Below, one piece after another: positions 1 through 14,934 of a DNA stretch of 14,934 nt. The notes under the pieces are model-generated. The model searched no databases. It saw only the letters and a program-made list of their open reading frames with translations, and was not told the DNA's origin. The translations under genes and the position numbers were made by a program. The stretch spans positions 1 through 14,934 of the forward strand of contig JAKAIH010000012.1 of NCBI GenBank assembly GCA_021825225.1, read 5' to 3'. Source of the stretch: Pseudomonadota bacterium. Lineage in GTDB: Bacteria; Pseudomonadota; Gammaproteobacteria; Burkholderiales; SG8-39. How positions within the stretch are numbered: the stretch's first letter is position 1; each line of letters begins with the position of its first letter.

Positions 1-186
1 GGCGAACGCGAAATCAAATCGCGCACCATCGGCGAACTGGTGATGCGCGAACTGAAGAAAATGGACGACGTCGCCTATATCCGCTTCGCCTCGGTGTACG
101 AGGATTTCCAGCGCGTCGACGATTTCCGCGACGCCATCCTGCAGGTGAAGCGCCCGGGGCGCAAAACACGGCGCCAGGGGCCTTAA
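1..186 (+). CDS. nrdR: Transcriptional repressor NrdR, C-terminal part (5' end outside window)
   Basis: The frame is open from base 1 and stops at TAA 184-186, giving 61 residues of the C-terminal part. The stretch with [20 protein letters not shown] followed by [11 protein letters not shown] is the hallmark end of the ATP-cone domain of NrdR, the zinc-ribbon/ATP-cone repressor of ribonucleotide reductase genes, which binds NrdR boxes depending on the bound nucleotide. The zinc ribbon and the first half of the ATP cone lie upstream of the window. The tail after the ATP cone is short and basic. It is followed 30 bp later by ribD, the order often seen in betaproteobacteria (nrdR-ribD-ribE). The family is certain; only its 3' part can be read. 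Confidence 0.93.
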
Positions 187-216
187 GAGCCCGTTCCCCG
201 AGAGCGCGCGGTCCTC

Positions 217-1305
217 ATGTTCAGCCCCGCCGATCGCGAGCACATGACCGAGGCGCTGCGCCTCGCCGAAAGAGGTCTGTTCAGCACCACCCCCAATCCG
301 CGCGTCGGCTGCGTGATCGTGCGCGACGGCGAGGTGGTGGGCTCGGGTTGGCACGAATTCGCCGGCGGCCCGCACGCGGAAATCGTGGCGCTGCGCGCGG
401 CGGGCGAACGTGCGCGCGGCGCCACCGCCTACGTGTCGCTCGAGCCCTGCAGCCACCATGGACGCACCCCGCCCTGCGCCGATGCGCTGATCGCAGCCGG
501 CATCGCGCGCGTGGTCGCGGCGATGCAGGATCCCAATTCCAGAGTAGCGGGCAGCGGCTTCGAGCGCCTGCGCGCTGCCGGCATCCAGGTCGAGTCCGGG
601 CTGATGCAGGAAGAGGCACGCGCGCTCAACGTCGGCTTCGTTGCGCGCATGAGCCGCGGCCGCCCCTGGCTGCGCATGAAAATCGCGGCCAGCCTGGACG
701 GCAGGACGGCGCTCGCCAACGGACGCAGCCAGTGGATCACCGGGCCCGAGGCGCGCCGCGACGGTCATGCCTGGCGCGCGCGCGCCTGCGCCGTGCTCAC
801 CGGCATCGGCACGGTCAGGGACGACGACCCGCAGTTGAACGTGCGCGAGGTCGAGACCGCGCGCCAGCCGCTGAAAGTCGTGGTGGACAGCCAGCTGCAA
901 CTGCCGCTGTCGGCGCAGCTGCTCGCCAGCGGCAAGGTGCTCATCGCCGCCGCGGTCGAGGACAAGGCCGCGATCGCCGCCCTGCAGGACCGGGGCGCCG
1001 AGGTGCTGCTGCTGCCCGATGCGCGCGGCAAGGTGGAACTGAGCGAACTCATGCGCGAGCTCGCGCGGCGCGAGCTCAACGAAATACACGTGGAGGCCGG
1101 CGTCAAACTGAACGGCTCGCTGCTCGCCGCAGGGCTGGTCGACGAGCTGCTGCTCTATCTCGCGCCTAGCCTGCTCGGCGACAGTGCACGCGGCATGTTC
1201 AGCCTGCCCGAACTCACAGACCTGGCGCAGAAGCGGCTGGTACAATTCGCCGACGTACAAACCATAGGGAGCGACCTGCGCATCCTCGCGCAAGTCAAAA
1301 ATTGA
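217..1305 (+). CDS. ribD: Bifunctional RibD: pyrimidine deaminase / uracil reductase
   Basis: A 362-residue cytoplasmic enzyme that deaminates and then reduces the GTP-derived pyrimidine in riboflavin synthesis. The N-terminal deaminase half (about 1-145) has the zinc site H53-A-E55 and PC-x8-C (C78, C87), with catalytic Glu55. The C-terminal reductase half (about 148-362) begins at RPWLRMKIAASLDGRTA and contains ITGPEARRDGHAWRARACAVLTGIGTV-type NADPH and substrate-binding segments (residues 174-200), here shown only as a description of the segment. Length is normal for the family. ATG 217 is chosen because MFS-x-x-D is the usual family start; ATG 244 is a shorter in-frame alternative, and neither has a clear ribosome site. 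The stop TGA (1303-1305) lies 2 bp before the ribE ATG, so the two genes are probably co-translated. Confidence 0.96.
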   Translation: MFSPADREHMTEALRLAERGLFSTTPNPRVGCVIVRDGEVVGSGWHEFAGGPHAEIVALRAAGERARGATAYVSLEPCSHHGRTPPCADALIAAGIARVVAAMQDPNSRVAGSGFERLRAAGIQVESGLMQEEARALNVGFVARMSRGRPWLRMKIAASLDGRTALANGRSQWITGPEARRDGHAWRARACAVLTGIGTVRDDDPQLNVREVETARQPLKVVVDSQLQLPLSAQLLASGKVLIAAAVEDKAAIAALQDRGAEVLLLPDARGKVELSELMRELARRELNEIHVEAGVKLNGSLLAAGLVDELLLYLAPSLLGDSARGMFSLPELTDLAQKRLVQFADVQTIGSDLRILAQVKN

Positions 1306-1307
1306 AC

Positions 1308-1898
1308 ATGTTCACCGGCATCGTCACCTCGATCGGAAAAATCACCCAATCCGCGCCGCGCGACGGCGGCCTGCGCCTCGCCGTCGACGCGGGCATGCTC
1401 GACCTGTCCGACGTGGCGCTGGGCGACAGCATCGCCGTGAACGGCGTCTGCCTCACCGTCATCGCCCTGCACGAGGACCGCTTCGAAGTCGACGTATCCC
1501 AGGAGACCATCAACTGCACCGTCGGGCTGGACGGACCGAACGAGGTCAATCTGGAGAAATCGCTGCGCCTGTCCGACCGCCTGGGCGGACACCTGATGTC
1601 CGGCCATGTCGACGGCGTGGGCGAGGTGAGGCGCTTCGAAGCCGCAGGCGAGAGTTTCCTGCTCGTCATCCGTGCGCCGCAGGACCTGGCCAGGTACATC
1701 GCACGCAAGGGTTCGGTCACGGTGAACGGGGTCAGCCTCACCGTCAACCGCGTGGAGGACGCCGATTTCGAGATCAACCTGATACCGCACACCCTCGGCG
1801 TGACCAACCTGAAGAACCTCAAACCCGGCAGCCGGGTCAACCTCGAGGTCGACCTGATCGCCCGCTACATCGAGCGCCTGCAGCACTATGGCGCGTAG
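1308..1898 (+). CDS. ribE: Riboflavin synthase alpha subunit
   Basis: A 196-residue enzyme that dismutates two 6,7-dimethyl-8-ribityllumazine molecules to riboflavin. It has the two tandem lumazine-binding barrels: repeat 1 about 1-90 (MFTGIV start, SIAVNGVCLT at 41-50) and repeat 2 about 91-190 (LGGHLMSGHVDG at 92-103, GSVTVNGVSLT at 135-145, IPHTLGVTNL at 159-168). ATG 1308 is chosen since MFTGIV is the invariant family start; a TTG at 1302 would add two residues. It follows ribD with a 2-bp gap. The final codons (1857-1898) recur in altered form at 4673-4714, so the present 3' end may have been supplied by an inserted element. ribBA and ribH, which often follow, are not in the window. Confidence 0.96.
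   Translation: MFTGIVTSIGKITQSAPRDGGLRLAVDAGMLDLSDVALGDSIAVNGVCLTVIALHEDRFEVDVSQETINCTVGLDGPNEVNLEKSLRLSDRLGGHLMSGHVDGVGEVRRFEAAGESFLLVIRAPQDLARYIARKGSVTVNGVSLTVNRVEDADFEINLIPHTLGVTNLKNLKPGSRVNLEVDLIARYIERLQHYGA
1857..1898 (+). repeat. Left copy of the ribE 3'-end repeat (candidate att site)
   Basis: These 42 bp are the last 13 sense codons and the stop of ribE (I-ARYIERLQHYGA-stop). They match 4673-4714 at 35 of 42 positions without gaps. Six of the seven differences are synonymous third-position changes and one changes the first codon (ATC/GTC). The longest identical run is CGCCTGCAGCA (1875-1885). A gene-3'-end repeat bounding foreign DNA is the typical product of site-specific integration by a tyrosine recombinase; that reading is inference, as no integrase is seen. 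Confidence 0.75.
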
Positions 1899-2443
1899 CA
1901 CATCGCGCCATCGTTAATCCGGCGTGGAATCCGCTTAGCACGTGCATGGACGTAGTGTAAAGCACGAAAAACCTTTGGAACTTTGTCAGAACGCTGTATT
2001 GGCCCAAGTTATTTGGTGATGGACGTCTGACGGTAATCTTGTGCAATAGCGACGAATACCAAAGGATAATCTCCGCGCGTAAGGCTGCGTCTTTTCTCCC
2101 TGCCCGGAGTGATAGCAACTAAGGGGGCGCAGCAGTGCATGGCAAGGAGGTATCTCCGCGTTGAGGATGCACCTGCGGACGTGACGGTCGCTGAAGAAGT
2201 ACGCCTACCGCATCTGCTGACACAGCCGCCTTTCAGTCCATGACATTGCGTCTTCCCTACTCAAGGTCCATTGCTTCCGGGTCACGACGCGGAGTCGACG
2301 TCGGCTTTGAGGAAGAATCGCCAGCGGCAGGTGGGGCCGGGACGCGCCCTTGCCATGAGTTAGAAACCGATACGTTCTCGGTCATCGGAGCCGGGCAAAA
2401 ACTGACGCTGCGCGGCTTTGATGCCAGCACGTTTCTGACCCTG
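1899..2443. other. 545-bp gene-poor left part of the island
   Basis: No convincing gene on either strand. The first about 200 bp are AT-richer than the surroundings. A 34-codon ATG frame (2138-2242) and a longer plus frame from 2240 that runs antisense through the toxin gene look like chance frames; I recognise no domain in them. The region may hold remains of a lost integrase or cargo gene, but I cannot show this from the sequence. Confidence 0.5.
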
Positions 2444-2734
2444 CTACAGATGCCTTTTCATGTCCATGTTCTGGTGCAGGACACGCACGATCCGAATACC
2501 TTTGGCTTTTGGCACGTAAAACACGACGTGTGATTCAAATTCGAGCCGCCGCAAATCCGGCGAGAGTTCGCTCGCGCTGCGACCCTGCATCGGATTTCCC
2601 GCAAGACTCTCGAATCGCTCGTGCAAACCGGTGAGATAGTCTCGCGCCGGCTTCAGGCCGAAATTGAGAATCGTGTATTCGTAGATTCCAGAGAGATCGG
2701 CGGCGGCTTTAGAGGAAAGACTATAGTCGGCCAT
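2444..2734 (-). CDS. ParE/RelE-family toxin
   Basis: A 96-residue small protein starting MADYSLSSKAAADLSGIYEY, with the ParE pattern: an N-terminal beta strand leading into an LS..A..DL..I..YT helix, a central GLKPARDYLTGL helix, the PMQGRSASELSPDLRRLEF segment, and C-terminal strands with HVVFYVPKAKGIRIVRVLHQNMD. ParE toxins usually poison DNA gyrase, whereas RelE relatives cut mRNA on the ribosome; the ParD-type partner favours a ParE role, but the target cannot be read from sequence. Its ATG lies inside the end of the antitoxin gene (14-bp overlap), the usual translational coupling. Length and conserved core look intact, so the toxin is probably functional. Confidence 0.88.
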   Translation of the reverse strand: MADYSLSSKAAADLSGIYEYTILNFGLKPARDYLTGLHERFESLAGNPMQGRSASELSPDLRRLEFESHVVFYVPKAKGIRIVRVLHQNMDMKRHL

Positions 2735-2978
2735 TCGATTTCAATCGGAGTTCGACTTCCTCCATGATCTGCGGCACAGTCCGATCACTCTCGCCGCTGT
2801 CCAAGCCTTCCTGAATGGCGGCCTTGAGGGTCTGAAATTTGGCGTTTTGTTCCTGGTCACGGCGGATCAGGTCGCGAAAATACTCACTATCGTTGGTGTA
2901 ATCGCCGCTGGCGATTCTCCCCTTAACCCACGCGTCCTGCTGGTCGGAAAGGGTGATGGTTTTGCGGGTGGTTGCCAC
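2721..2978 (-). CDS. ParD-like antitoxin
   Basis: An 85-residue protein with an N-terminal ribbon-helix-helix segment (about 1-45: RKTITLSDQQDAWVKGRI, then SGDYTNDSEYFRDLIRRDQE) and an acidic C-terminal tail (about 50-85) that would bind the toxin. This is the ParD/CC2985-type antitoxin pattern. The start is GTG at 2978-2976, supported by GGAG seven bases upstream; no ATG fits. It is the first gene of the minus-strand antitoxin-toxin pair and its 3' end overlaps the toxin start by 14 bp. The repeats at 3000-3036 directly upstream are a good candidate for its own operator, giving autoregulation typical for such pairs. Confidence 0.88.
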   Translation of the reverse strand: MATTRKTITLSDQQDAWVKGRIASGDYTNDSEYFRDLIRRDQEQNAKFQTLKAAIQEGLDSGESDRTVPQIMEEVELRLKSNGRL

Positions 2979-2999
2979 TGTTGGTCTCCAATAGGTGCG

Positions 3000-3047
3000 A
3001 TAGTCATACTATTGGTGCAATATAGCATACTATTGGGCGCCGCAAAA
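3000..3047 (-). promoter_or_regulatory. Promoter and repeated operator of the parD/parE-like operon
   Basis: The 11-mer CATACTATTGG (plus strand) occurs at 3005-3015 and 3026-3036, a period of 21 bp or two helix turns. Each copy sits in an inverted repeat: ATAGT-CAT-ACTAT (3000-3012, perfect) and ATAG-CATA-CTAT (3022-3033). On the minus strand a TATATT (3024-3019) fits a -10 box and TTTTGC (3047-3042), 17 bp upstream, a weak -35. The repeats overlap and follow the -10, as expected for a repressor operator bound by the ribbon-helix-helix antitoxin. Confidence 0.6.
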
Positions 3048-3102
3048 TCCGAAACCGACGGCCACGTACAGGCCTTCCGCGTCAATCAAGCCCGGCAGTT
3101 GG

Positions 3103-3846
3103 CTAACCACCGATTCGTGCTCGCCCCTCGCCGCCGTTCAGGGGCTTGGCGAACCCGACCTTATCGCCCGCCAAGCTACCTTTGTGTGCCGCTGTCGGGT
3201 CACGCATCGCAATGCGCGAACTCTTGTATTTCGGAGTACCGAATTCCGCATCGCGCCGGGTAAGCTTGTCGTTGACTAGAACGAGCGCTGTTCCTATTCC
3301 CTGACGATTAGGGGCGGCGGCGAATTCCGCATCCCGCTCACGGCGCAAGTTTTTCATCCGGGATGACAGCCGCACCGCCATTGCCTTCCGAAAATCCTCC
3401 GCTTCGATCCTGCTCCATTCGGGATGGTCCTTACGGGCATGGTTCAAGGCAGCCCACACGCTGCCCTTGAGATATGCGACCAGCCATTGTGCAAACAGGG
3501 TATCGGCGCGATCACCGTAGAAGCCAACGCCATAACCGTGCGTTGCATCGTAGTGCAGGCGAACGATGGTGTCGGTGAACGTTGCCACGCCGGTACTGAC
3601 GATCTGAAACCACCTGGGGCAACTCTTGGCTGGGTTCTGCGGCGCACCGTAGGCGTGAAAGGCGTCGGCCCAATCAAAATCTATCGCTGCTTCCGTACTG
3701 GCGATTTCCGCCTGCTCGATGCCGAACTTGCGGATCAGGGCTTCAGCCTGAGCCAGGGCGCGCTCGGCTTCGTTGCGATTACCCCGGTCGTCCATGGCGA
3801 CGGCCATGAGCTTCTGAGTTTTTCTTATTGCTTGGGCTTTATCCAT
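3103..3846 (-). CDS. DUF2786 domain-containing protein
   Basis: A 247-residue protein. Residues about 1-50 (DKAQAIRKTQKLMAVAMDDR, then NEAERALAQAEALIRKFGIEQAEI) match the DUF2786 helical domain. The middle part (about 85-150), with a GYGVGFYGDRADTLFAQWLV segment, resembles the domain usually found C-terminal to it in phage, plasmid and ICE proteins. Its function is unknown; no catalytic motif is evident. The C-terminal tail is basic and Gly-rich. The start is ATG 3846, with a GAGGGA about a dozen bases upstream; the hypothetical gene at 3880-4389 ends 33 bp before it, so both may be co-transcribed. Presence next to a toxin-antitoxin pair supports the mobile nature of the region. Confidence 0.8.
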   Translation of the reverse strand: MDKAQAIRKTQKLMAVAMDDRGNRNEAERALAQAEALIRKFGIEQAEIASTEAAIDFDWADAFHAYGAPQNPAKSCPRWFQIVSTGVATFTDTIVRLHYDATHGYGVGFYGDRADTLFAQWLVAYLKGSVWAALNHARKDHPEWSRIEAEDFRKAMAVRLSSRMKNLRRERDAEFAAAPNRQGIGTALVLVNDKLTRRDAEFGTPKYKSSRIAMRDPTAAHKGSLAGDKVGFAKPLNGGEGRARIGG

Positions 3847-3879
3847 CTATGCTCAGTTCCCTCATCACACTGCTCAAAC

Positions 3880-4389
3880 CTAGCCGGGTTTGCGAAAGCC
3901 ATCCTCAATCCACGCGCTCGCACTGGCCCTGCTCAGTTTGAATCGCGGACCCACGCGCACTTGAGCCAGAACTTCATCATTGGCGTCGTGTGCGCGCAAA
4001 AGAGCATGGGGATCGTCTTCGTCGGCAACGATGTCCAGCGTAATGCTGATCTGTCCGGACTGCGCGTTGACCGTGACGCTCTGGTGGTGTGCCGCATGCA
4101 ACTGTTGCTCCTGGCGCAGCCGGAATTCAGAAGCTGTCTTGACCAGAGTGTTGAAGGCGGCAGGGTCAAGCGGCTTCGGGTTCTTCTTGTCACGCCCCAT
4201 TGTCCAGGGGCCGACCAGCGCAGGCTCGACCTCGCCGTCCAGGATCATCTCGACGGCCCAGCCCTCATCGTCTTCGTTCTTGATTACGCGAGCGGTCCAG
4301 CCGTTGTCGCGCCACACTCGCGCTTCCTTAACAAAAGCGGGTGCGGTGGCGTCTGTCTCAGCGGCGGCGTCCATCGTGTTTATCGTCAT
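3880..4389 (-). CDS. Hypothetical protein of the island
   Basis: A 169-residue, mostly polar, acidic N-terminal protein of unknown function. Visible: a segment with VWRDNGWTARVIKNEDDEGW and VEMILDGEVEPALVGPW (about 25-65), a KNPKPLDPAAFNTLVKTASE stretch, and a beta-rich part with ITLDIVADEDDPHALLRAHD (about 117-136). No membrane segment or known catalytic motif. ATG 4389 is taken because GGAGGT lies upstream (minus strand, 4406-4401) and the reading frame is well kept; ATG 4374 is an alternative. A three-codon frame (ATG GCG CCA TGA, 4397-4386) sits between this ribosome site and the gene, its stop overlapping the gene's ATG. I do not recognise the family by name; similar small proteins occur on plasmids and integrative elements. 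Confidence 0.65.
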   Translation of the reverse strand: MTINTMDAAAETDATAPAFVKEARVWRDNGWTARVIKNEDDEGWAVEMILDGEVEPALVGPWTMGRDKKNPKPLDPAAFNTLVKTASEFRLRQEQQLHAAHHQSVTVNAQSGQISITLDIVADEDDPHALLRAHDANDEVLAQVRVGPRFKLSRASASAWIEDGFRKPG

Positions 4390-4822
4390 GGCGCCATTTT
4401 ACCTCCAGACGAGGTAAGCGGCGGAGACTAGCGCCACAGCGAGGCGCTCTGTGGGGTTGACTCAAATAGAGCATCCGGAATCAATTTGTTGGCTCTTTAT
4501 GCAAGGGGAGGCTCGCGCACGTAGTAGCCAGGATATGGGAGAATGATAGATAAATATAAATCTACGTGCGGGTATCAACATCTAGCGCAGGTGACGGTAT
4601 ATGCGACGCCAAATAATGCCATTCAGTCACAAAACACTATGCCCATACTCGCCCATGACAAACCTCAACGGTGTCGCGCGTTACATCGAACGCCTGCAGC
4701 ATTACGGCGCCTAGTCCGAATTCCCTTCAATCGCCCAGTACCCCGTATACCTCGATGGCCGGCACGAGGATTCCCGCCACGCCGCAGAGCGTGCATCGTT
4801 TGCATGAGGCCCCGCTGACACC
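4390..4822. other. Gene-free stretch with the island's right end
   Basis: No gene of its own. Bases 4430-4660 are AT-richer and include GATAGATAAATATAAAT (4544-4560). The ribE-end relic lies at 4673-4714. From 4715 the composition returns to that of the chromosome and leads to the histidine kinase start. Short plus frames here (for example from 4543) lack support. Confidence 0.5.
4673..4714 (+). pseudogene. Relic of a ribE 3' end (right repeat, candidate att site)
   Basis: Bases 4673-4714 read VARYIERLQHYGA-stop, identical in 12 consecutive residues to the end of the intact ribE but with different codons (GCG/GCC, CGT/CGC, GAA/GAG, CAT/CAC, TAC/TAT, GCC/GCG). Upstream of 4673 the similarity stops, so this is a 3'-end fragment without the rest of the gene. 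It is probably the original host ribE terminus displaced by the insertion, or less likely a trace of a lost ribE duplicate. The synonymous differences show both versions evolved as coding sequence in different lineages. Confidence 0.75.
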
Positions 4823-6583
4823 ATGACGAAACGTTTGCGTCACTTGCTGCTCGCACTCGTCGCGCTGGCGCTGGTGGCCGCGCTCGCGTTTCTGTACGAC
4901 AAGACGCAGGCAGTCGACCTGGGCGAACGCAACGAGATTGCGGCGCTGCTCGATACCCTGCGCGAGATCGACAGCCGCTGGGACATCGACGTATTGCGCG
5001 AGCGCACCGAGCTCGACCCGAATCAGCCGGCGGCGCCCAATCGCACGGCAGCGGCGAAGAAGGCGCTCGCCAGCCTGGCCGCCGCCGTGCCGCGCGCCGA
5101 CAGCGCAGCCTTGCGAGGGGGCATGGGCGGGCTCGCCAAGGCCATGTTCGAAAAAGCAGTCCTGGTGGAAAAATACAAGGCCGAAAGCGCGCACGCCAAA
5201 GTCGCGCTGCGCGCGGTGCTCTCCGGCGCGGCCGCGCTGAGCAGCCCGGCCGGCGCGCCGCCCAGCCCCGACGCGCGGCAAGCGCAGCTCGATCAGGCAG
5301 TCAACCAACTGGTCGCCGCAGTGGAACAGTACTATTGGCTGGGGAAGGCGGCCGCACCGATGAGCCTGCAAATGGCGGCGAACCGGGTGCAGGAGCTGGC
5401 TGGCGGCGTCAGCGACAGCGCGCGCGATCAGGCCGCCGCCATGGACGGCGCAGTGCGGGAACTGCTGCAGCACAAGCCGGCCGAAGAGGAACTGTTCGCG
5501 AAGCTCTCGTCCCTGTCTTCCGGCCCGCGCCTCGACCAGATGAGTTTCGCCCTGAACCGCGAACTCGAGGACACGCTGCAGACGAAGGAACTGTTCCGGG
5601 TGTACCTGCTCGCCTACGCTGCGGCGCTGCTGATCGGCGTCGGCTATCTGGGGGTGCGGCTCAAGGCCGCGAACGAAAGCCTGGAGCAGCGCGTGATCGA
5701 GCGCACGCGCGAGCTGTCCGAGGCGCTGCGCCACCTGAAAGAGTCCGAAGCGCAGCTGATCCAGTCGGAGAAAATGTCCTCGCTCGGCCAGATGGTCGCC
5801 GGCGTCGCGCACGAGATCAACACGCCGCTTGCCTACGTGAAGAACAGTCTGGGCACGGTCAGCGAGCGCCTGCCGCAGATCACGGCCGCGATCGGGCACT
5901 GCGAAGAACTGCTGGCGCTGCTGGCCGCGGGCAAGGCCGAGCCCGACGCCCTGAACCGGCAGTTCGCGCAGACCTCCGCAGCGCTGGCCCAGCTCAAGCA
6001 GCAGCAGGTGCTGACCGAGCTCGGCGCCCTGGTCAAGGACGGCATTTACGGCACCGGCGAGATGGCGGAGATCGTGGGCAATCTCAAGGACTTCAGCCGC
6101 CTCGACCGCAGCAAGGTGGCGAGCTTCAACCTCAACGACGGACTCGCGAGTTCGCTCGGCCTGGCGCGGCATATGCTCAAGGCGGTGAAAGTCACGCGGC
6201 AGTTCGGCGAAATACCGACCATCACTTGCGCGCCCTCGCAGATCAACCAGGTATTCCTGAACCTGATCACCAACGCGGCGCAGGCGCTGCCGCCTGCGAA
6301 CGGGGAAATCACGCTGACCACGCGCGCCGACCAGGGCGGCGTCGCGGTCGAGGTCGCCGACAACGGCAAGGGCATCCCCCCCGAGGTGCTGCCGAAAATC
6401 TTCGATCCTTTCTTCACCACCAAGGAAGCCGGCAAAGGCACCGGGCTCGGGCTGTCGATCTCGTTCAAGATCGTGGAGCAGCATGGCGGGCGCATAACGG
6501 TCGCCTCCGAAGTCGGCAAGGGGACCCGATTCACGGTATGGCTGCCGGCGAAGCCCCCCGCGGAAACCGAACTCGCCGCGTAG
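4823..6583 (+). CDS. Membrane sensor histidine kinase with helical periplasmic (DAHL-like) domain
   Basis: 586 residues: a first membrane segment (about 7-25), a periplasmic region of about 230 residues that is helical and Ala/Leu/Glu-rich, with EIDSRWDIDVLRER (48-61) as in DAHL sensory domains, a second membrane segment (about 258-279), a coiled coil (about 283-318), then the kinase core. The phosphoacceptor is H330 (AGVAHEINTPLAYVKNSL), with an N box around N480/N484 (FLNLITNAAQAL), DNGKG at 513-517, DPFFTTK at 528-534 and GKGTGLGLS at 538-546. All ATP-binding motifs are present, so it should be active. The ligand is unknown. No strong ribosome site precedes ATG 4823, but no better start exists. 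It ends 3 bp before the Ser/Thr kinase-receiver gene, its likely partner. Confidence 0.9.
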   Translation: MTKRLRHLLLALVALALVAALAFLYDKTQAVDLGERNEIAALLDTLREIDSRWDIDVLRERTELDPNQPAAPNRTAAAKKALASLAAAVPRADSAALRGGMGGLAKAMFEKAVLVEKYKAESAHAKVALRAVLSGAAALSSPAGAPPSPDARQAQLDQAVNQLVAAVEQYYWLGKAAAPMSLQMAANRVQELAGGVSDSARDQAAAMDGAVRELLQHKPAEEELFAKLSSLSSGPRLDQMSFALNRELEDTLQTKELFRVYLLAYAAALLIGVGYLGVRLKAANESLEQRVIERTRELSEALRHLKESEAQLIQSEKMSSLGQMVAGVAHEINTPLAYVKNSLGTVSERLPQITAAIGHCEELLALLAAGKAEPDALNRQFAQTSAALAQLKQQQVLTELGALVKDGIYGTGEMAEIVGNLKDFSRLDRSKVASFNLNDGLASSLGLARHMLKAVKVTRQFGEIPTITCAPSQINQVFLNLITNAAQALPPANGEITLTTRADQGGVAVEVADNGKGIPPEVLPKIFDPFFTTKEAGKGTGLGLSISFKIVEQHGGRITVASEVGKGTRFTVWLPAKPPAETELAA

Positions 6584-6586
6584 AGC

Positions 6587-8458
<1,872 letters not shown>

Positions 8459-8517
8459 GCGCGCGCCGACATCGAATGGTTCGAGCCTTGGGCGGCTCGC
8501 CGACCGAAGCAAAACTG

Positions 8518-8532
8518 GGCGCCTTTGGCGCC
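8518..8532 (+). terminator. Short hairpin after the kinase operon, possible weak terminator
   Basis: GGCGCC-TTT-GGCGCC forms a 6-bp GC stem with a 3-nt loop, 60 bp after the kinase-receiver stop, followed by TTACTGT rather than a clean T run. It may end the operon, but the lack of a U tract makes this uncertain. Confidence 0.3.
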
Positions 8533-8597
8533 TTACTGTCCAGCTTTAACGCCAATAATCAGCGATCGTGCGAAGGCCCCGTCCGTTCGACCTGAAG

Positions 8598-8753
8598 TTA
8601 GACTCCCACATACCCTACAGCGCCCTTCTTGGCGCCGGGAATGCATGCAAGCAGTCCCGGGATGAGACGTTTCCGGCGCGCCGTCTTGACCTCGTGACCC
8701 ACGATGTCGCGCGAGAACCGCCAGTCAACACATTCGTCGACAAATACCTTCAC
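8598..8753 (-). pseudogene. DUF5615 PIN-like toxin with in-frame internal deletion
   Basis: A 51-codon frame starting at GTG 8753 that overlaps the stop of the DUF433 antitoxin by 3 bases (GTGA). The first 25 residues (VKVFVDECVDWRFSRDIVGH, then EVKTAR) match the start of DUF5615 toxins, with the Asp/Glu of the PIN-like active site. The last 25 (RKRLIPGLLACIPGAKKGAV, then GYVGV) match the family's C-terminal end. The middle, including the usual MGW..(K)NGELL and VTVD(R/Q)NL segments, about 55-65 residues, is missing, yet the frame is kept. The toxin is therefore probably inactive. The family assignment rests on recall of the motif order at both ends. Confidence 0.7.
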
Positions 8754-8962
8754 GACGCAGCGGCGACTAGACGATCTTTCGCCTGTTCGAGAAAACTGAC
8801 GACCTGCTCTCGACTGACTGAAGGAAATCCGGCGAGAAACGCATCAATGGTCTCTCCGCCTTCAAGGTAGTCAAAGAGTGTCTGGACAGGTACCCGAGTG
8901 CCAGCAAAAACCGCGGTGCCACCCATTACATCGGGGCTGCAGGAGATGACTGAAGTTTCCAT
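8750..8962 (-). CDS. DUF433 antitoxin
   Basis: A 70-residue protein of full family length: MGGTAVFAGTRVPVQTLFDY (13-32) followed by LEGGETIDAFLAGFPSVSRE and QVVSFLEQAKD. This is the DUF433 pattern (ISxDPxxxGGxPxxxGTRVPV...L...G.....L..FP.LT.E.V...L), a MerR-like winged-helix fold that acts as VapB-type antitoxin and usually precedes a DUF5615 toxin. The stop overlaps the GTG of the shortened toxin, the normal arrangement. The gene itself looks intact although its toxin is not. The start ATG 8962 has GGGAG about 12 bases upstream. Confidence 0.88.
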   Translation of the reverse strand: METSVISCSPDVMGGTAVFAGTRVPVQTLFDYLEGGETIDAFLAGFPSVSREQVVSFLEQAKDRLVAAAS

Positions 8963-9097
8963 ACGGCCAGACTACTCCCTGTTCTGCGTCCGATGCAACC
9001 GCAGGAGTCGAACCAGGCTGTAGAAAACCCCATCTTTGGCGCGACGGCCACTGAGCGAGTTGATGCAGCGTTGTTGTGTCCAGCATGTTGATGGTGA

Positions 9098-9418
9098 TCA
9101 GGCAAACACGACCGACACGCGTCCTGCCGCTTTCGAACGTGGCGCAGGCTTCACCACGATCTCGATATCGCGTCCAAGGCGTGTCAGGCACTCAAGCATC
9201 TTGGTTTCCGAGATACCGCGGAACCGGCCGCGCAGCATGTTGGAGAGCTTCGGCTGGGGAATACCCAGCAACTCCGCTGCCTGTAGTTGCGTCAGTTTGC
9301 GACCGCGGATGATTTCAGTGATCTTGGCCGCCAGCTGTGCCTTGACCAACATTTCCCCGGCACTCGGATAACCGAGATCGGCATAGACGTTGGTACTTCC
9401 CTTCGCGATCGGCGTCAT
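9098..9418 (-). CDS. XRE-family HTH protein, HigA-like antitoxin without visible toxin
   Basis: 106 residues. An N-terminal MTPIAKGSTNVYADLGYP segment is followed by a helix-turn-helix (about 38-75: ITEIIRGRKLTQLQAAELLG, then IPQPKLSNMLRGRFRGISET) and a C-terminal LGRDIEIVVKP strand, the pattern of the HTH_37/COG5606 group of HigA-like antitoxins. In that group the RelE/Gp49-like toxin normally lies immediately upstream of the antitoxin; here the 230 bp upstream hold no such gene, so it is an orphan. ATG 9418 is chosen; ATG 9427 would add three residues, and neither has a Shine-Dalgarno. It may still act as a DNA-binding repressor or neutralise a toxin encoded elsewhere. Confidence 0.82.
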   Translation of the reverse strand: MTPIAKGSTNVYADLGYPSAGEMLVKAQLAAKITEIIRGRKLTQLQAAELLGIPQPKLSNMLRGRFRGISETKMLECLTRLGRDIEIVVKPAPRSKAAGRVSVVFA

Positions 9419-9425
9419 GCGAGTC

Positions 9426-9431
9426 ATTATA
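9426..9431 (-). promoter_or_regulatory. Possible -10 box just before the HigA-like gene
   Basis: On the minus strand a perfect TATAAT occupies 9431-9426, so transcription would start near 9420-9419, one or two bases before ATG 9418. That would give an almost leaderless message, which fits the absence of a ribosome site. No good -35 is seen at the proper distance, so the call is weak. Confidence 0.3.
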
Positions 9432-9647
9432 TGCAAATGGGGATACTTTTTGCCCGACGAAATTTTCGGCGACAAGGAAATGCCCGACCCCCAAAGTTCC
9501 CACACTCAAGGTCGCCCCGCAGGTCCGCGACACCACATGCGTATTGGCGTTTTGGAGATAGCAAAGAGCACAGTCTCTCGTGCAAGATCTTCTCCCCAAT
9601 CCACTGTGACAGACCTCTTGGCGGAGAAAATTCTTCGGGCCTGGCCT

Positions 9648-9723
9648 CTCGCTAATTGTCCGCTAATTCTCGTCGGCTAAGATCCTGATAGCGTAGATAG
9701 CGGCGTAAATTGAAAGAGCAATC
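9648..9723 (+). promoter_or_regulatory. Promoter block 1 with CTAATT direct-repeat response-regulator box
   Basis: CTAATT (9652-9657), N5, CTAATT (9663-9668), N9, TAAGAT (9678-9683, -10-like). The 76-bp block aligns without gaps to 10695-10770 (about 55 of 76 identical by eye, 32 of the first 37). Hexamers repeated every 11 bp next to a -10 box are the way OmpR-family activators of the PmrA/QseB type bind. It is the nearest promoter candidate for the RRM-like gene and the lasso-type precursor downstream. The position equivalent to the GTG of block 2 is CTG (9727), so no gene starts there. Confidence 0.65.
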
Positions 9724-9729
9724 GTCCTG

Positions 9730-9783
9730 TAATGACGGCAAAAACACAAGAAAGCGCAAGAGTTGACCTTGAATTATCAACTT
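9730..9783 (+). pseudogene. Relic of a second lasso-type precursor 3' end
   Basis: Bases 9731-9766 read NDGKNTRKRKS-stop, matching NDGKNARRRRRCL-stop of the precursor at 10344-10385. The nucleotide similarity covers about 9730-9783 against 10343-10396 (roughly 80% by eye, starting with 16 identical bases). No leader, Gly1 or start codon precedes it: the relic begins directly where promoter block 1 ends. It is therefore the tail of a former paralogous precursor joined to a promoter by a deletion. Confidence 0.65.
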
Positions 9784-9886
9784 CATCCGCGGGCATTTCG
9801 AAAGAGCATTCGGGCGACCACCTTTTAGTTCCCTGCGGACCGTACTGCGAAAACAGTGTGCTTCTAGAAGCTGGATCTTGAACGCC

Positions 9887-10168
9887 ATGCAGGTCAATCT
9901 AAAGCGCTGCTTTTCGCCATTTTTGAACGAGCAGCTCCTACGTTCAGCCGTCGAATCGCTCTGCACCAAGTACGGAGCCATGACGTATCTGCGGATCCTC
10001 CCACCTAGCCGGGGACCAGATAATCAACTCCGTTGCGCTTGCTTCCTTCGACTAGACTCTGATGAAGCCCAGGAAAGCATGGGCAAAGCGCTCGATGGTT
10101 ACAACTTCGGCGATACGTTCGCATTCTTCGTCGACGTAGATGAAGAATACACGCACCCGCTCTTGTAG
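9887..10168 (+). CDS. Small RRM-like protein upstream of the RiPP precursor
   Basis: A 93-residue protein starting MQVNLKRCFSPFLNEQLLRS. I do not recognise a named family, but the order fits an RNA-recognition-motif fold: strand 1 (VNLKRCF), helix 1 (NEQLLRSAVESLCTKYG), strand 2 (MTYLRILPP), an RNP1-like strand 3 (LRCACFLRLDS, about 50-60), helix 2 (DEAQESMGKALDG) and strand 4 (FAFFVDVDEE). The classic RNP aromatic residues are only partly kept, so RNA binding is a guess. ATG 9887 is used; TTG 9878 is possible, and no strong ribosome site is seen. It lies between promoter block 1 and the precursor (28-bp gap to GTG 10197), suggesting one transcript. It could serve in precursor expression or be unrelated. 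Confidence 0.6.
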   Translation: MQVNLKRCFSPFLNEQLLRSAVESLCTKYGAMTYLRILPPSRGPDNQLRCACFLRLDSDEAQESMGKALDGYNFGDTFAFFVDVDEEYTHPLL

Positions 10169-10196
10169 TTTCGCACTACGACAAGAAGTGCCAAAC

Positions 10197-10385
10197 GTGG
10201 AAAAACATAAGAAAAATGACGAAGAACCGGAGCAAGATGATCCAATGGGGGGAAAAGTAACCACCAGGAAGCCCTATACTTCCCCCGTCCTCGTGGAATA
10301 CGGCACCATCGCCAAGCTCACGCAAGGAAACAAGACGCGGAATAATGACGGCAAAAACGCCAGAAGGCGCAGGCGTTGTCTTTGA
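10197..10385 (+). CDS. Lasso-type RiPP precursor peptide (orphan)
   Basis: 62 codons from GTG 10197 (AAGAAG eight bases upstream); ATG 10245 would give a 46-residue form, ATG 10140 a longer one that overlaps the previous gene. The leader holds KPYTSPVLVEYGTIAKLTQ (residues 25-43), which fits the YxxPxLxxYG motif (Y27, P30, L32, G36) that lasso B1/RRE proteins bind, and has Thr at position -2 (T42). The predicted core is GNKTRNNDGKNARRRRRCL (10326-10382): Gly1 and Asp8 are properly placed for an eight-residue macrolactam ring, with a very basic tail ending Arg5-Cys-Leu. No cyclase (asparagine-synthetase-like), B2 protease or transporter lies in the window, so maturation would need enzymes encoded elsewhere. 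The precursor call is inference from the leader motif and core spacing. Confidence 0.72.
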   Translation: MEKHKKNDEEPEQDDPMGGKVTTRKPYTSPVLVEYGTIAKLTQGNKTRNNDGKNARRRRRCL

Positions 10386-10694
10386 ATCGTCGGTTTCCCG
10401 CCGCAGGTATCCTTCGGGTCGTCCAACCAGAGTCACAAGCGCGCAACGTCCGGCGTATGGCGCTCCGACTATTACCCCGGCAACCCGTATTCTTTCCGCT
10501 GAATACTCCAGCCTTCACCGGGCGCGCAAAGACATTCAATGCCGTGGTTACGGCTCGCATAGCGTGCGCCACGCAGAATTCTTGACCGCCAAAACATCCA
10601 TTTTGCCGGGCGACCAGCCCGGCATCAGGCCGGACGCTTCCATTCATAACCCTACCCGGAGTTGGACAACAATTTCTTTTTCCCCCAGACACCG
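10386..10694. other. 309-bp stretch without a recognisable gene
   Basis: The first about 50 bp continue the similarity to the relic at 9767-9783 and beyond, more weakly. The rest has frames on both strands (plus 10345-10713 and 10376-10585, minus 10318-10692) whose products I do not recognise and that overlap each other. A 7-bp perfect hairpin, GCCGGGC-GACCA-GCCCGGC, lies at 10605-10623 without a following T run. No lasso B or C enzyme remnant could be recognised. Confidence 0.5.
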
Positions 10695-10770
10695 CTCGCT
10701 AATTGTCTCCTAATTCTTGTTCGCTAAGATCGCGGGCACGAACATACTCGCGTGACTTGAAGGAGTGATC
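10695..10770 (+). promoter_or_regulatory. Promoter block 2 with CTAATT direct-repeat response-regulator box
   Basis: CTAATT (10699-10704), N5, CTAATT (10710-10715), N9, TAAGAT (10725-10730), then a leader ending in AGGAG (10761-10765) eight bases before GTG 10774. Spacing of all elements is identical to block 1. There is no separate -35, as expected for a promoter that depends on an activator bound at the repeats. It probably drives the 34-codon frame and the COG4705-PAP2 genes. A QseB/PmrA-like regulator is encoded 2.2 kb downstream and is the obvious candidate to bind here. Confidence 0.68.
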
Positions 10771-10773
10771 ACC

Positions 10774-10878
10774 GTGGAAAACAAGATCTATCTGGTCGGG
10801 AATAGCGCGGCGAGCCGGTGCCACCGCCAGCGCCTACGCAGGGTGCATCGCCGCACCCCGGCCTCATCGTTAGCTTGA
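10774..10878 (+). CDS. Short 34-codon frame behind promoter block 2
   Basis: GTG 10774 has the best ribosome site in the region (AGGAG, 8-nt spacing), then reads MENKIYLVGNSAASR and a very Arg/His-rich remainder to TGA 10876-10878. The first nine codons look like a real protein start, whereas the rest resembles out-of-frame reading of GC-rich DNA. It is probably the 5' end of a gene cut off or frameshifted, or a leader peptide that couples translation to the membrane-protein gene 35 bp downstream. No family is recognised. Confidence 0.4.
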   Translation: MENKIYLVGNSAASRCHRQRLRRVHRRTPASSLA

Positions 10879-10913
10879 AGCGCACACCGCTAAACACCCA
10901 TGGGAGAAGCCAA

Positions 10914-11714
10914 ATGAAGACACTCGCGCGCGAAGACGCAATGCAGATGCTGAACAAAGTTCCGGAAGTCACGCTTTACTTCTGGATTATCAAGATCATG
11001 GCAACGACCGTCGGCGAGACGGCCGCGGATTTTCTCAACGCCGATTTGCATTTCGGCCTGAATGGCACCTCTGTCGTGATGGCCGCCCTGCTTGCCGTTT
11101 TCCTGTTCGTGCAACTGCGCGCAAAAGAATATGTGCCGTGGCGATATTGGGTGGTGGTGGTGCTGATCAGCGTTGTCGGAACGCTGATCACCGACAATTT
11201 GGTGGACAACTTCGGCGTCGCCCTGGAAACAACCACCATCGTATTCGGTATGGCCTTGCTTGCGACCTTCGCCGCCTGGTACGCGAGCGAAAGGACGCTG
11301 TCGATTCACAGCATTTTCACCAGCAAGCGCGAGCTGTTCTATTGGGCGGCCATTTTGTTCACGTTCGCCCTGGGCACCGCGGCTGGCGATCTCGCCGCCG
11401 AAGGATTGAAGCTCGGCTATGCGAACTCGGTGCTGATATTCGGTGCGCTGATCGCGCTTACGACCGTCGCCTATTACCTGTTCAAGGCAAATGCAGTTGC
11501 GGCATTCTGGATTGCTTACATTCTGACGCGCCCGCTTGGCGCATCCCTGGGGGACAGTCTTTCGCAGCCAGTCGACAATGGCGGAATCGGTTTGGGCGCG
11601 ACGGCCACGAGCGCAATTTTCCTCGCAACCATACTGAGCCTGGTGCTTTACCTTACCGCCACCCGCAAAGACGTGATCGAACTGCGCGCAGACGAAAACG
11701 ACCGGCTCTCCTGA
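10914..11714 (+). CDS. COG4705-family inner-membrane protein
   Basis: A 266-residue polytopic membrane protein with about eight hydrophobic segments. After a short cytoplasmic start (MKTLAREDAMQMLNKVPEVT), the COG4705 signatures follow: KIMATTVGETAADFLN (about 24-39), TLITDNLVDNFGV in the middle, a second half with ALGTAAGDLAAEG, and RPLGASLGDSLSQP (about 205-218). The two GE/GD-TAAD/TAAGD motifs mark an internal duplication of the fold. The function of the family is not established; it often lies near QseB/PmrA-type two-component genes. ATG 10914 is preferred over an upstream GTG (10818), as GGAGAA lies seven bases before it. The PAP2 gene begins 12 bp after its stop, so both form an operon. 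Confidence 0.85.
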   Translation: MKTLAREDAMQMLNKVPEVTLYFWIIKIMATTVGETAADFLNADLHFGLNGTSVVMAALLAVFLFVQLRAKEYVPWRYWVVVVLISVVGTLITDNLVDNFGVALETTTIVFGMALLATFAAWYASERTLSIHSIFTSKRELFYWAAILFTFALGTAAGDLAAEGLKLGYANSVLIFGALIALTTVAYYLFKANAVAAFWIAYILTRPLGASLGDSLSQPVDNGGIGLGATATSAIFLATILSLVLYLTATRKDVIELRADENDRLS

Positions 11715-11726
11715 TCAGGATTCGAC

Positions 11727-12323
11727 GTGGAACACCTGAACCAGGCGCTATTTCTGCTGATCCACGCAGGCAAGAGCACACCGGGCATCGCTGTCGTCGC
11801 AGCCCGCGTCCTCGCGCAGGATCTCGTCTGGATCGTGCCGGCGGGGCTGGTCGCCGGCTGGCTGCGAAGCTCCGCCGCCACCAGACAAGTCTTGCTCGCC
11901 GCCGCCCTTGCGGGCTTGACCGGTTTGCTGGTCAACCAGTTGATCGGCGCGGCCTGGTACCATCCGCGGCCGTTCGCGTCCGGGTACGGTCCAGCGCTGA
12001 TCGTGCACGCCGCGGACAGTTCGTTTCCGAGCGATCACCTGACCCTGATCTGGGCCGTCGCCTTCAGCCTGCTGCTGCATCGGCAGACCCGGCTCGCTGG
12101 ATGGGCGCTCTTCCTGCTGGGGGTGCCGGTGGCCTGGGCACGCGTCTATCTGGGCTTGCATTTTCCGCTGGACATACTCGGAGCCGCACTGGTGGCTCTG
12201 AGTAGTACCTGGCTCATTGGCGGGCAAGAAGAACTGTTGATCACGCCGTTGATGCGCACGCTGCTGTCGCTGCATCAAGTGATATTCGCCGGTTTGATTC
12301 GAAGAGGCTGGGTGGAAAAATGA
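11727..12323 (+). CDS. PAP2-family phosphatase, BcrC/YbjG-like
   Basis: A 198-residue membrane protein with about five to six membrane segments and the phosphatase signature: motif 1 WYHPRPF (77-83), motif 2 SFPSDH (99-104) and motif 3 ARVYLGLHFPLD (138-149), giving R81, S102, H104, R139, H145 and D149 at the active site. This form (YHPRPF, SFPSDH) is that of undecaprenyl-pyrophosphate phosphatases of the BcrC/YbjG type, which recycle the lipid carrier for cell-wall and O-antigen synthesis and can give bacitracin tolerance; a lipid A phosphatase role cannot be excluded. The start is GTG 11727, with AGGA six bases upstream. Such enzymes are common targets of PmrA-like regulators, which fits the regulator gene downstream. 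Confidence 0.9.
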   Translation: MEHLNQALFLLIHAGKSTPGIAVVAARVLAQDLVWIVPAGLVAGWLRSSAATRQVLLAAALAGLTGLLVNQLIGAAWYHPRPFASGYGPALIVHAADSSFPSDHLTLIWAVAFSLLLHRQTRLAGWALFLLGVPVAWARVYLGLHFPLDILGAALVALSSTWLIGGQEELLITPLMRTLLSLHQVIFAGLIRRGWVEK

Positions 12324-12363
12324 TATTCTTGTCGCCGTGGCCGGACGGCATTCAGGAGAGGCT

Positions 12364-12888
12364 ATGATGCCAACGAATTATGGAAACACAATTCGCGCGG
12401 TGACCACCGTCATCACGGTCCTCGGCGCAGGATGTGCCATGTCCACATCGGTGCAAGCCGAAACCATTTACCGCTCGATCAGCCCGAACGGCGAGGTTAC
12501 GTATTCGTCGCGGCCGGTGCCCGGTGCGCGCGTGTCGACGGCGGTCGACATTGAAAGTCTGTCGCCCGAGCAGCGGCGCGCCGGTTTGCTGCTGCGCCGG
12601 CAGGACAAGGCCCTCTCAGCCGAGGTCAATGCGCAACTGCTGTCGCGCGAAGCCGAATGGCGCCGGGTCGACCGGGAAATCGTTTCCGCCCAAAGGGTGC
12701 TCGCGCAAGCGGAACGCGCCCTGCAGAAAGGCCGCACCCCGCTGCCCGGGGAACGGCGCGGCAATGTCGGCGGGGGCTCGCGGCTGACGGAGGCTTATTT
12801 TCAGCGTCTGCGCCAGCTCGCTACGCGAGTGGAAGGCGCTAAAGCGAGCCTGGACAGCGCGTACGCCGCGCGCAACGCGCTCAAGTGA
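12364..12888 (+). CDS. Exported DUF4124 domain protein
   Basis: 174 residues from ATG 12364 (AGGAGAGG just upstream; ATG 12367 is equally possible). A signal peptide covers about 1-32, with predicted cleavage at VQA-ET. The mature start ETIYRSISPNGEVTYSSRPVPGA is the DUF4124 domain, described here by its ends ETIYRS and RPVPGA; these short periplasmic domains are common in beta- and gammaproteobacteria and of unknown role. Residues about 60-130 are Arg/Glu/Gln-rich and likely helical or coiled coil (SPEQRRAGLLLRRQDKAL), followed by a Gly/Arg linker and a second helix (YFQRLRQLATRVEGAKASLD). It lies 40 bp after the PAP2 gene and 35 bp before the response regulator, in one direction. Confidence 0.85.
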   Translation: MMPTNYGNTIRAVTTVITVLGAGCAMSTSVQAETIYRSISPNGEVTYSSRPVPGARVSTAVDIESLSPEQRRAGLLLRRQDKALSAEVNAQLLSREAEWRRVDREIVSAQRVLAQAERALQKGRTPLPGERRGNVGGGSRLTEAYFQRLRQLATRVEGAKASLDSAYAARNALK

Positions 12889-12923
12889 CGGCGGCTGGAC
12901 GAATACCGGCGCGATACCACAAT

Positions 12924-13604
12924 ATGCGGATACTACTTGTCGAAGACGATCCCATGATCGGCGACGCGGTCTCAGTCGCCCTCAAGGACGCCGCCTATGC
13001 GGTGGACTGGGTAAAGGATGGGGCCGCCGCCGGCAGCGCGCTCGAACACGGCGAGCACCAGGCCGTGCTGCTCGATCTGGGCCTGCCCAAGCGTGACGGA
13101 CTGGAAGTGCTGCGCCGCCTGCGTCAGGCGGGCAACGCGGTGCCGGTTATTGTCATCACCGCCCGCGACGGCGTGGACGACCGGATCAAGGGACTCGATT
13201 TCGGCGCGGACGACTATCTGGTGAAACCCTTCGATGTCAACGAACTGCTCGCCCGGCTGCGGGCGATTATCCGCCGCCAGGGCGGGCAGGCCACGCCGGT
13301 GCTCAGCAACGGCACGGTCAGCCTCGACCCGGCGACCCGGGAAGCGCGCTGCGGCAACACCGTGGAGCTTCTGAGTGCGCGCGAGTTCGCCCTGTTGCAC
13401 GCGCTGCTGCTGCGTCCCGGCGCGATACTCACCCGAACCGAACTTGAAGAGCGCATCTACGGCTGGAGCGAGGAAGTGGAAAGCAATGCCGTGGACTTCC
13501 TCATCCATGGTGTGCGCAAGAAGCTCGGCGCCGATGTCATCAAGAATGTACGCGGCGCGGGCTGGATGGTGAGCAAGGATCGCGGGACGGGGCAGGAGGA
13601 ATGA
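12924..13604 (+). CDS. OmpR-family response regulator, QseB/PmrA-like
   Basis: 226 residues. The receiver (1-118) has D8/D9, phosphoacceptor D51 (LLDLGLPKRDG), T79 and K101 (YLVKPFDV). The winged-helix domain (about 126-220) contains LSAREFALLHALLLRPGAIL (150-169) and the recognition part SNAVDFLIHGVRKKLG (187-202) with VRGAGWM. Gene and motif order match the QseB/PmrA/TctD subgroup. ATG 12924 is chosen because MRILLVEDD is the canonical start; an upstream GTG (12885) would add 13 atypical residues. The expected histidine kinase does not follow: the stop overlaps the start of the efflux gene (ATGA). The partner kinase may lie beyond the window. The CTAATT-N5-CTAATT boxes at 9652 and 10699 have the 11-bp repeat this subgroup binds. 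Confidence 0.93.
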   Translation: MRILLVEDDPMIGDAVSVALKDAAYAVDWVKDGAAAGSALEHGEHQAVLLDLGLPKRDGLEVLRRLRQAGNAVPVIVITARDGVDDRIKGLDFGADDYLVKPFDVNELLARLRAIIRRQGGQATPVLSNGTVSLDPATREARCGNTVELLSAREFALLHALLLRPGAILTRTELEERIYGWSEEVESNAVDFLIHGVRKKLGADVIKNVRGAGWMVSKDRGTGQEE

Positions 13605-14934
13605 GAATTCGGCTCCTTGCCGTTACTTCGATTGTCCTGGGTCTTGCCGCTTGCGCCGCTTACGCGCCCAAGCCGCTGCCTGAGCGGGTGAATTTGCCGC
13701 AATCTGCGTCCGCGATCGCAGTCGATCCGGCGCACCTGCCTTTTCGGAGTCTGGCCACCCATCTGTTCAATCCCGCCGACGGTCTGGACATGGACGAAGT
13801 GGCGATGCTGGCGGTAGCGAACAATCCGCAGTTGCGCCAGGCGCGGGATGCTTTGGGTGTCGTGCACGCCCAGTCCTTCGCCGCCGGCCTGCTGCCCGAT
13901 CCGCAACTCGGCATCACCTCGGACCATCCGACCAATGGCACCGCGGGAAATACCAATGCCTTCAATCTCAATCCGAGTTTCGACGTCAGCGCGCTGCTGC
14001 TGCGCTCCTCGCGCAAGAACGCGGCACTCGCGCAGGAGCAAGGAGTAAACCTGGAACTGTTGTGGCAGGAATGGCAGGTGGTGAGCCAGGCGCGCCTGCT
14101 GTTTGCCCGGCTCACTGCGCAAGACGCGTTGATGCAACAATTGCAGGTCGCTCGCACATTGCTAGCGGATCGCTCCGAGCGCACTCAAAAGGCGCTCGCG
14201 GCGGGCAACGTTACCCTAGATTTTGCCAGCGCCGACCTGGCCGCCCTGCAGGGGGTCGAGCGCCGCATCAATGATCTGGAACGCAGCCGTCTGCAAAACC
14301 GCGCAAGCCTCAACGGCGTGCTCGGGCTGGCCGCCGATGCGCCGCTCGATCTGGTGGGCGAGCCGCAGGCGGCTGCGATCGATGCCGCCGCGCTGCGCGC
14401 CGACCTGGAGCAGCGCCTCAACCAGCGCCCGGATTTGCAGGCGCTGCAAGCGGGCTATCGATCGCAGGAAGAAAAGTTTCGCGGCGCGGTGCTGGCGCAG
14501 TTCCCGGCATTGAACGTCGGCCTCACGCGCGCGCGCGACACCAGCGGCCTGTACAGCGTGGGCTTCGGCCTGACGCTGAGTCTGCCGGTGTTCAACCGCA
14601 ATCGCGGCAATATTGCCATTGAAGACGCCACGCGCAGGAAGCTGTACGACGAATACCAGAATCGGCTCAACGGCGCTTACAGCGAGATTGCGCTTGCGCT
14701 GGAGAACCTGCCCTTGTTGCGCAGCCAGCTGCAGCGCACCCGCCAGGGCGTAGCCGAACTCGAAACCGTCGCGCATCGCGCCGAAGCCGCGTTCCGGGCG
14801 GGCAATCTCGCCGCCCCCGATTACGTACGGCTGCAAACCGCGCTGCTGGACAAGCAAATCGAAGCCATTAACCTGCAGGAGGCCTTGATGGAACAGCAAA
14901 TCGCGCTCGAGACCCTGCTCGGTCCCGACCTTCC
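13601..14934 (+). CDS. TolC-family outer-membrane efflux lipoprotein (3' end outside window)
   Basis: The frame is open from ATG 13601 to the window end (444 codons read, no stop). The signal peptide ends in a lipobox LAAC with Cys18 (MRIRLLAVTSIVLGLAAC), so the protein is lipid-anchored in the outer membrane. Two OEP repeats follow: MLAVANNPQLRQARDALGV near residue 70 begins the first, and LNQRPDLQALQAGYRSQEEK (about 272-291) the second; VGFGLTLSLPVFNRNRG (about 323-339) is the typical OEP segment, and long helical heptads follow. This is the outer-membrane channel of an RND or ABC efflux system, in the CusC/NodT style. The start overlaps the regulator stop (ATGA) and has AGGAGG one base upstream, so it is translationally coupled. 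The pump genes are probably downstream. Confidence 0.9.
   Translation, partial: MRIRLLAVTSIVLGLAACAAYAPKPLPERVNLPQSASAIAVDPAHLPFRSLATHLFNPADGLDMDEVAMLAVANNPQLRQARDALGVVHAQSFAAGLLPDPQLGITSDHPTNGTAGNTNAFNLNPSFDVSALLLRSSRKNAALAQEQGVNLELLWQEWQVVSQARLLFARLTAQDALMQQLQVARTLLADRSERTQKALAAGNVTLDFASADLAALQGVERRINDLERSRLQNRASLNGVLGLAADAPLDLVGEPQAAAIDAAALRADLEQRLNQRPDLQALQAGYRSQEEKFRGAVLAQFPALNVGLTRARDTSGLYSVGFGLTLSLPVFNRNRGNIAIEDATRRKLYDEYQNRLNGAYSEIALALENLPLLRSQLQRTRQGVAELETVAHRAEAAFRAGNLAAPDYVRLQTALLDKQIEAINLQEALMEQQIALETLLGPDL

Follow-up and report, generated by a model that had tools for sequence, protein, structure and literature searches.

The gene at positions 10197..10385 of the forward strand of the window, the whole 14,934-nucleotide stretch of DNA analysed here, is almost certainly the gene for a lasso peptide precursor. 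It is a member of a little-described family of soil lasso precursors, most of which end in Cys-Leu. The account that we regard as probable, if only modestly so, is that of a real lasso precursor which has been parted from its cluster and which, if still productive, is matured in trans.

The gene starts with GTG, ends with a TGA stop codon and encodes a product of 62 amino acids, MEKHKKNDEEPEQDDPMGGKVTTRKPYTSPVLVEYGTIAKLTQGNKTRNNDGKNARRRRRCL. An earlier note on this DNA had described a lasso-type precursor with leader positions Tyr27, Pro30, Leu32, Gly36 and a Thr at -2, all of which were confirmed in the open reading frame (Y27, P30, L32, G36, and T42 at -2), as were G44 (core position 1), D51 (core position 8), R56-R60, C61 and L62. 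The leader end, YTSPVLVEYGTIAKLTQ with its Thr at -2, is encoded at 10275..10325 (+), followed by the predicted macrolactam ring GNKTRNND, from Gly1 to Asp8 (10326..10349, +), and by the predicted threaded tail GKNARRRRRCL with the C-terminal Cys-Leu of the family (10350..10382, +). The net charge of this core is +7. Eight nucleotides before the GTG, the hexamer AAGAAG (10183..10188, +) may act as a weak Shine-Dalgarno-like element, as read from the sequence. The window gave no match when scanned for Rfam families and tRNAs, and a promoter and terminator scan of 9500-10950 gave a count about equal to that of shuffled sequences.

The precursor matches the NCBIfam model NF033521 (lasso_leader_L3) over residues 27-45 with 23.9 bits (E 2.9e-5), above the curated cut-off of 19. 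The lasso_cyano model NF033528 reached 18.4 bits, below its cut-off of 33, and a Pfam scan of the 62 amino acids gave no match. A pattern combining leader and ring, defined once the gene had been seen (YxxPxLxxxG, T at -2, a small residue at 1, an acid at 8), has one occurrence in the six frames of the window versus none in 400 base shuffles. The single-sequence search returned two proteins, P0001 (95% identical, E 3e-32) and P0002 (56%, E 2e-12), the latter recorded as 'MAG: lasso RiPP family leader peptide-containing protein [Burkholderiales bacterium]' and thus bearing the family name of NF033521. This model shares with the window gene the leader motif, but it is a 20-position, leader-only model, silent on the core, the Cys-Leu end and the orphan position. 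P0001, possibly from the same cluster as the window's own protein, has changes at residues 4 and 15, both in the variable leader end, and its core is identical.

A third relative was found by scanning genome contigs, in a Vicinamibacterales MAG (locus L006). The earlier note had suggested searching databases for similar leader-core pairs, and a profile built from the query and the relatives P0001, P0002 and L006 did retrieve 366 proteins at E<=10. The family counts given here are based on the best 120 of these 366 (down to E 2.7e-7), ranked by how well they match the query profile, some of them being close to one another; the core is taken as the residues after [AS]KLT[QR], a motif present in all 120. 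Core residue 1 is G in 72, S in 39, A in 5 and T in 4 of them. An acid occupies position 8 in 108 and position 9 in the other 12, the sole additional acid within core positions 1-12 being one at position 5, and the positions between the ring pair are more variable. A conserved small first residue with a conserved acid at 8 or 9 is the signature of a macrolactam ring of eight or nine residues, and Gly1 and Asp8, already named as ring positions in the earlier note, represent the conserved ring pair because that pair is kept across the 120 listed homologues. The same note had considered the tail unusual for a lasso peptide, a view that is not borne out within this family. The five Arg are there as described, but Cys is the common penultimate residue, as 105 of the 120 listed homologues end in CL or CI (15 exceptions). 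Other members are also rich in Arg or Lys, yet the end of the window core is the most cationic, with core net charges among the 120 running from -1 to +7 around a median of 1.

The window gene agrees with all 15 columns that are invariant in the 27 listed proteins aligned with it (alignment A3), which were hand-picked for the cationic/CL type, so that the invariant columns are biased accordingly. The start equivalent to 10197 is found in P0002 and in most rows of this alignment; that of P0001 lies three residues earlier and that of P0016 still further out. In the window itself, the frame stays open upstream of the GTG and would give 81 amino acids if read from 10140.

The family has been seen in MAGs of Burkholderiales and Vicinamibacterales. 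An order-wide search with a profile (A1) found it in one of 300 genomes, the own genome of the window, and an order-wide search with NF033521 in two of 399, the own genome and, below the cut-off, G461. No match was obtained by tblastn against plasmids, and none of 58 pattern matches in viral contigs was confirmed. The leader codons at 10284-10324 share 90% DNA identity over 41 nt with 10010-10050 of L006, that is, between the own genome and a Vicinamibacterales MAG. The twelve homologues with the acid at position 9 (P0054, P0057, P0058, P0072, P0079, P0089, P0095, P0099, P0106, P0112, P0113 and P0120) have mostly Met-containing tails, and may form a separate branch of the family with a ring of nine residues.

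The precursors of relatives lie among lasso genes. In L006, the precursor (9950-10111) has genes for PqqD, Transglut_core3 and Asn_synthase proteins upstream, and, downstream, genes for a methyltransferase, a P-loop protein that matches HPr kinase below the threshold, and a 2OG-Fe(II) oxygenase. Within the taxonomic family, a precursor match is present in 9 of 98 genomes, the own one included (8 of 98 with profile A3). The regions around the match in the eight other genomes, five of them of the same genus (G310, G312, G313, G317 and G320), were searched by tblastn with the L006 proteins (E<=1e-3). An HprK-like gene was found in all eight, the cyclase C and PqqD in seven each, the methyltransferase in five and B2 in four, with the B2 of L021 unconfirmed and the cyclase of L023 a fragment at a contig end; in the 8 kb region of L027, tblastn found neither C nor PqqD. 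Among the relatives in the 98 family genomes, no precursor clearly separate from a cluster was found. The five same-genus loci and the Vicinamibacterales MAG JAUXWO010000051.1 resemble the window gene in their related leaders and the acid at core position 8. Unlike it, the same-genus precursors adjoin PqqD, cyclase and HprK-like genes in 5/5 regions, with B2 found in 4/5 and the methyltransferase in 3/5. The precursors of G313, G320 and the MAG also end in Cys-Leu, at a core charge of about +1 versus +7 here, whereas in G310 one of two cores reaches +5 but lacks the Cys-Leu.

Across the eight regions there are nine precursors. Eight have the acid at position 8, and that of L027, with a further Asp at 3, has it at position 9. 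In L020 and L021 the precursor begins 75 and 63 nt after the cyclase stop, and L022 holds two in tandem, one of them with a +5 core, which shows that a cationic core can be found next to enzyme genes. The lasso cyclase NF033535 is the best model for the cyclases of L006, L020, L021 and L022, whose scores (256 to 525 bits) remain under its 525-bit cut-off; the general asparagine synthase model TIGR01536 is matched above its own cut-off by three of them, those of L020, L021 and L022. The B2 of L022 is above the cut-off for both NF033537 and Transglut_core3. The idea that the PRMT-like methyltransferase methylates Arg was set aside, as L023 has the enzyme but an Arg-free core.

Some further genes accompany these clusters. 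APS-kinase-like ORFs lie near the lasso genes of L020 (6574-7134), L021 (12019-12579), L022 (1-365), L025 (8456-9154) and L026 (4727-5287), identified by Pfam in L020 and by eye in the other four, and may hint at sulfation. ORFs of 2,098 and 2,080 aa, with a start rich in D, H and R, lie beside the lasso genes of G313 and G320 (L020 1-6296 and L021 12994-19235) and reach the end of the region examined.

The window gene has no such company. The earlier note had reported no B1, B2 or C gene in the window, and this holds: the best tblastn match to 12 cluster proteins of relatives has an E of 0.097. The only exporter-like protein, among 10 sequences scanned with NCBIfam and 10 with Pfam out of 98 ORFs, is an outer membrane efflux protein (13601-14932). 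In the own genome assembly (3.13 Mb in 544 contigs, 84.67% complete, 2.41% contamination), no Transglut_core3 lasso protease was found at E<=0.001 and no lasso-type cyclase was found. Three Asn_synthase matches were weighed as cyclases and rejected: two fit XrtA amidotransferase/asparagine synthase models far better than NF033535 and the third is an argininosuccinate synthase (ArgG). One of the first two is cut by a contig end, and two of the three match the L006 cyclase by tblastn at about 30% identity. PqqD gave one match over its cut-off, within a 726-aa frame rather than in a small B1, and the search for the cluster methyltransferase turned up nothing close, the best E being 0.003. The only lasso leader in the genome is that of 10197-10385. 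Because these enzyme searches came back empty, the gene is an orphan, as the earlier note had described it for the window, as far as an assembly that misses some 15% of the genome goes. The note had named two findings that would speak against its proposal: the absence of a lasso cyclase or protease, neither of which was found in the 84.7%-complete assembly, and a lack of conservation of Gly1 and Asp8, where the opposite was observed.

The stretch at 9490..10600 (GC 0.528) carries both the precursor and a decayed copy of it. GC is 0.634 at 1-8500, 0.569 at 8500-9490 and 0.628 at 10600-14934; in 200-base steps it remains at 0.53-0.61 as far as about 11600, and the right-hand boundary is thus a gradual one. 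The low GC is not foreign for the gene itself, since in relatives, too, the precursor gene has a low GC (0.517 and 0.532). With 8500-10700 as the DNA query, matches were obtained in 8 of 14 genus genomes, the own one included, and none of those in the other 13 covers 9490-10600, with only part of the candidates scored in some genomes (e.g., 21 of 36). In G317, the match to the right flank (10601-12745) begins at 10601 after unrelated sequence, with 91.7% identity over 1168 bases, and the left flank (8728-9488) is on another contig. The decayed copy (9730..9849, +) corresponds to the 3' end of the precursor and its downstream region, with 84% identity over 45 nt and a gapped local score of 71 versus at most 47 in 200 base shuffles. 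It reads NDGKNTRKRKS and then stops, the stop replacing the Cys codon, with no leader seen. A tandem pair with one decayed member would be in keeping with the two tandem precursors of L022.

In the lasso class, the order of action of B1, B2 and C is established. By analogy, B1, an RRE of the PqqD type, would bind the leader (YxxPxLxxYGxIAKLTQ), B2 would cut it off after Gln43, with Thr42 at -2, and the cyclase would join the freed Gly1 to the side chain of Asp8, giving an eight-residue ring. We infer from this a threaded, strongly cationic tail of 11 residues ending in Cys-Leu. The gene would have become separated from a cluster to stand alone, next to a decayed sister copy, in a GC-poor variable stretch, and any product would presumably be made in trans, by enzymes encoded elsewhere, in the unrecovered part of the genome.

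The least probable of the alternatives is that the gene has the same type of leader but encodes an Arg-rich peptide with another fate, and not a lasso precursor. Related leader motifs are found in more than one RiPP class, which together with the orphaned position of the gene leaves some room for this; the ring pair, which all 120 listed homologues retain amid more variable positions, and the lasso genes adjoining the homologues, make it very improbable. A far stronger contender, although still doubtful, is a stranded relic, left by the loss of its cluster or by the copying away of a precursor pair, whose intact copy is no longer matured and has not yet decayed. The decay of the adjoining copy and the enzymes not found in the 84.67%-complete assembly favour such a relic, and the stretch is non-syntenic with G317, where its two flanks are on different contigs. 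The reading frame, however, is intact and in line with the 15 invariant columns of the family, and the changes in P0001 are confined to the variable leader end, both of which favour recent use; in addition, the window holds no remnant of a lasso enzyme. Use in trans by unrecovered enzymes is placed ahead of a relic by a small margin.

An assembly effect, in which a chimeric contig or a misplaced stretch hides a precursor that truly adjoins its cluster, is unlikely. The fragmentation, incompleteness and contamination of the assembly, the separate contigs of the flanks in G317 and the lower GC around the gene would agree with it, but the DNA to the left of the stretch and the DUF347 gene to its right are both matched within the same genus, and no C was found on this contig, although the precursor directly follows C in L020 and L021. 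Maturation in trans of a precursor parted from its cluster remains the preferred account. Counted against it are the searches of the assembly that found no lasso protease, no lasso-type cyclase and no close match to the methyltransferase, and a PqqD only within the 726-aa frame, as well as the decayed sister copy, the family genomes in which no precursor clearly apart from a cluster was found, and the fact that the cyclases of L020, L021 and L022 pass the general model but stay below the lasso cyclase cut-off.

Some lanthipeptide systems have scattered precursors, and on this analogy a bolder proposal can be made, which is rather unlikely as a whole: a freestanding +7 lasso precursor with remote ring enzymes, where Cys-Leu would be a site of modification or attachment for the HprK-like protein or the methyltransferase, and where the cationic members may have an anionic binding target, for example RNA, as is the case for lariocidin. 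If peptides of this kind are matured in trans, mining for enzyme-adjacent precursors would miss them; if the gene is a relic, it is an example of a lasso precursor outliving its cluster. The gene also links what was a loose sequence hint to a large lasso family that follows a clear rule, namely a small residue 1, an acid at 8 or 9 and mostly a Cys-Leu end.

Among known lasso systems, soil metagenome clusters with phospho- or methyltransferase genes have been published, composed of A, B1, B2, C and tailoring genes and including one acidobacterial cluster with two A genes, so the cluster type of the relatives is not new as such; in the accessible portions of these reports, a product was obtained only from BGC 89, of a different make-up, and the likeness noted is one of gene content and soil origin (PMC12670498, PMC9064862). 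Lariocidin, named alongside triculamin, is according to the available excerpt a ribosome-binding, cationic peptide of 18 residues whose ring joins Ser1 to Asp8 (PMC11451635). These are also short cationic lassos with an eight-residue ring closed at Asp8, a likeness of charge and ring size only; lariocidin differs in its Ser1 start, its Arg-Gly end without a C-terminal Cys-Leu, and the ABC transporter and GNAT genes of its cluster.

Kinases of the paeninodin type phosphorylate a C-terminal Ser, as the consulted part of one report describes (PMC9266682). The relatives' clusters likewise hold an HprK-like gene, by weak model matches, and that of L020 a nucleotidyltransferase-family gene, but the conserved end here is Cys-Leu. 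Citrulassin, in the same portion of that report, relies on a remotely encoded deiminase and is a precedent for dependence on a distant enzyme, although only its tailoring enzyme is remote and not the ring-forming ones (PMC9266682). In the literature searched, among the matches listed and with most subscription papers outside, no Cys-Leu-ended or orphan lasso precursor is described and no function is stated for the Cys-Leu end motif.

Several minor features surround the gene. Just upstream, a 96-aa ORF (9878-10168, +) has three metagenomic homologues and a sub-threshold RRM_1 match (E 0.08); it was dropped as a lasso partner, its best E in the loci of other genomes being 0.75. Between the precursor and the DUF347 gene lies a small ORF (10774-10878, +; 34 aa, GTG start), and, judged by eye, a comparable ORF occupies the corresponding position in G317. 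Two 88-nt stretches, 9645-9732 and 10692-10779, are 70% alike and contain repeated CTAATT, which we take to be a possible PmrA/QseB-type operator; the second precedes the DUF347 gene, and an OmpR-type regulator is encoded at 12885-13604. Toxin-antitoxin-like genes are found at 8750-9505 (-) and 2444-2978 (-), with DUF433, an HTH_37 protein and a ParD-type antitoxin (TIGR02606), the latter paired with a small partner ORF. The DNA at 9011-9095 has an 89% copy in G000:C129, and that at 9097-9166 has two copies in G317:C110.
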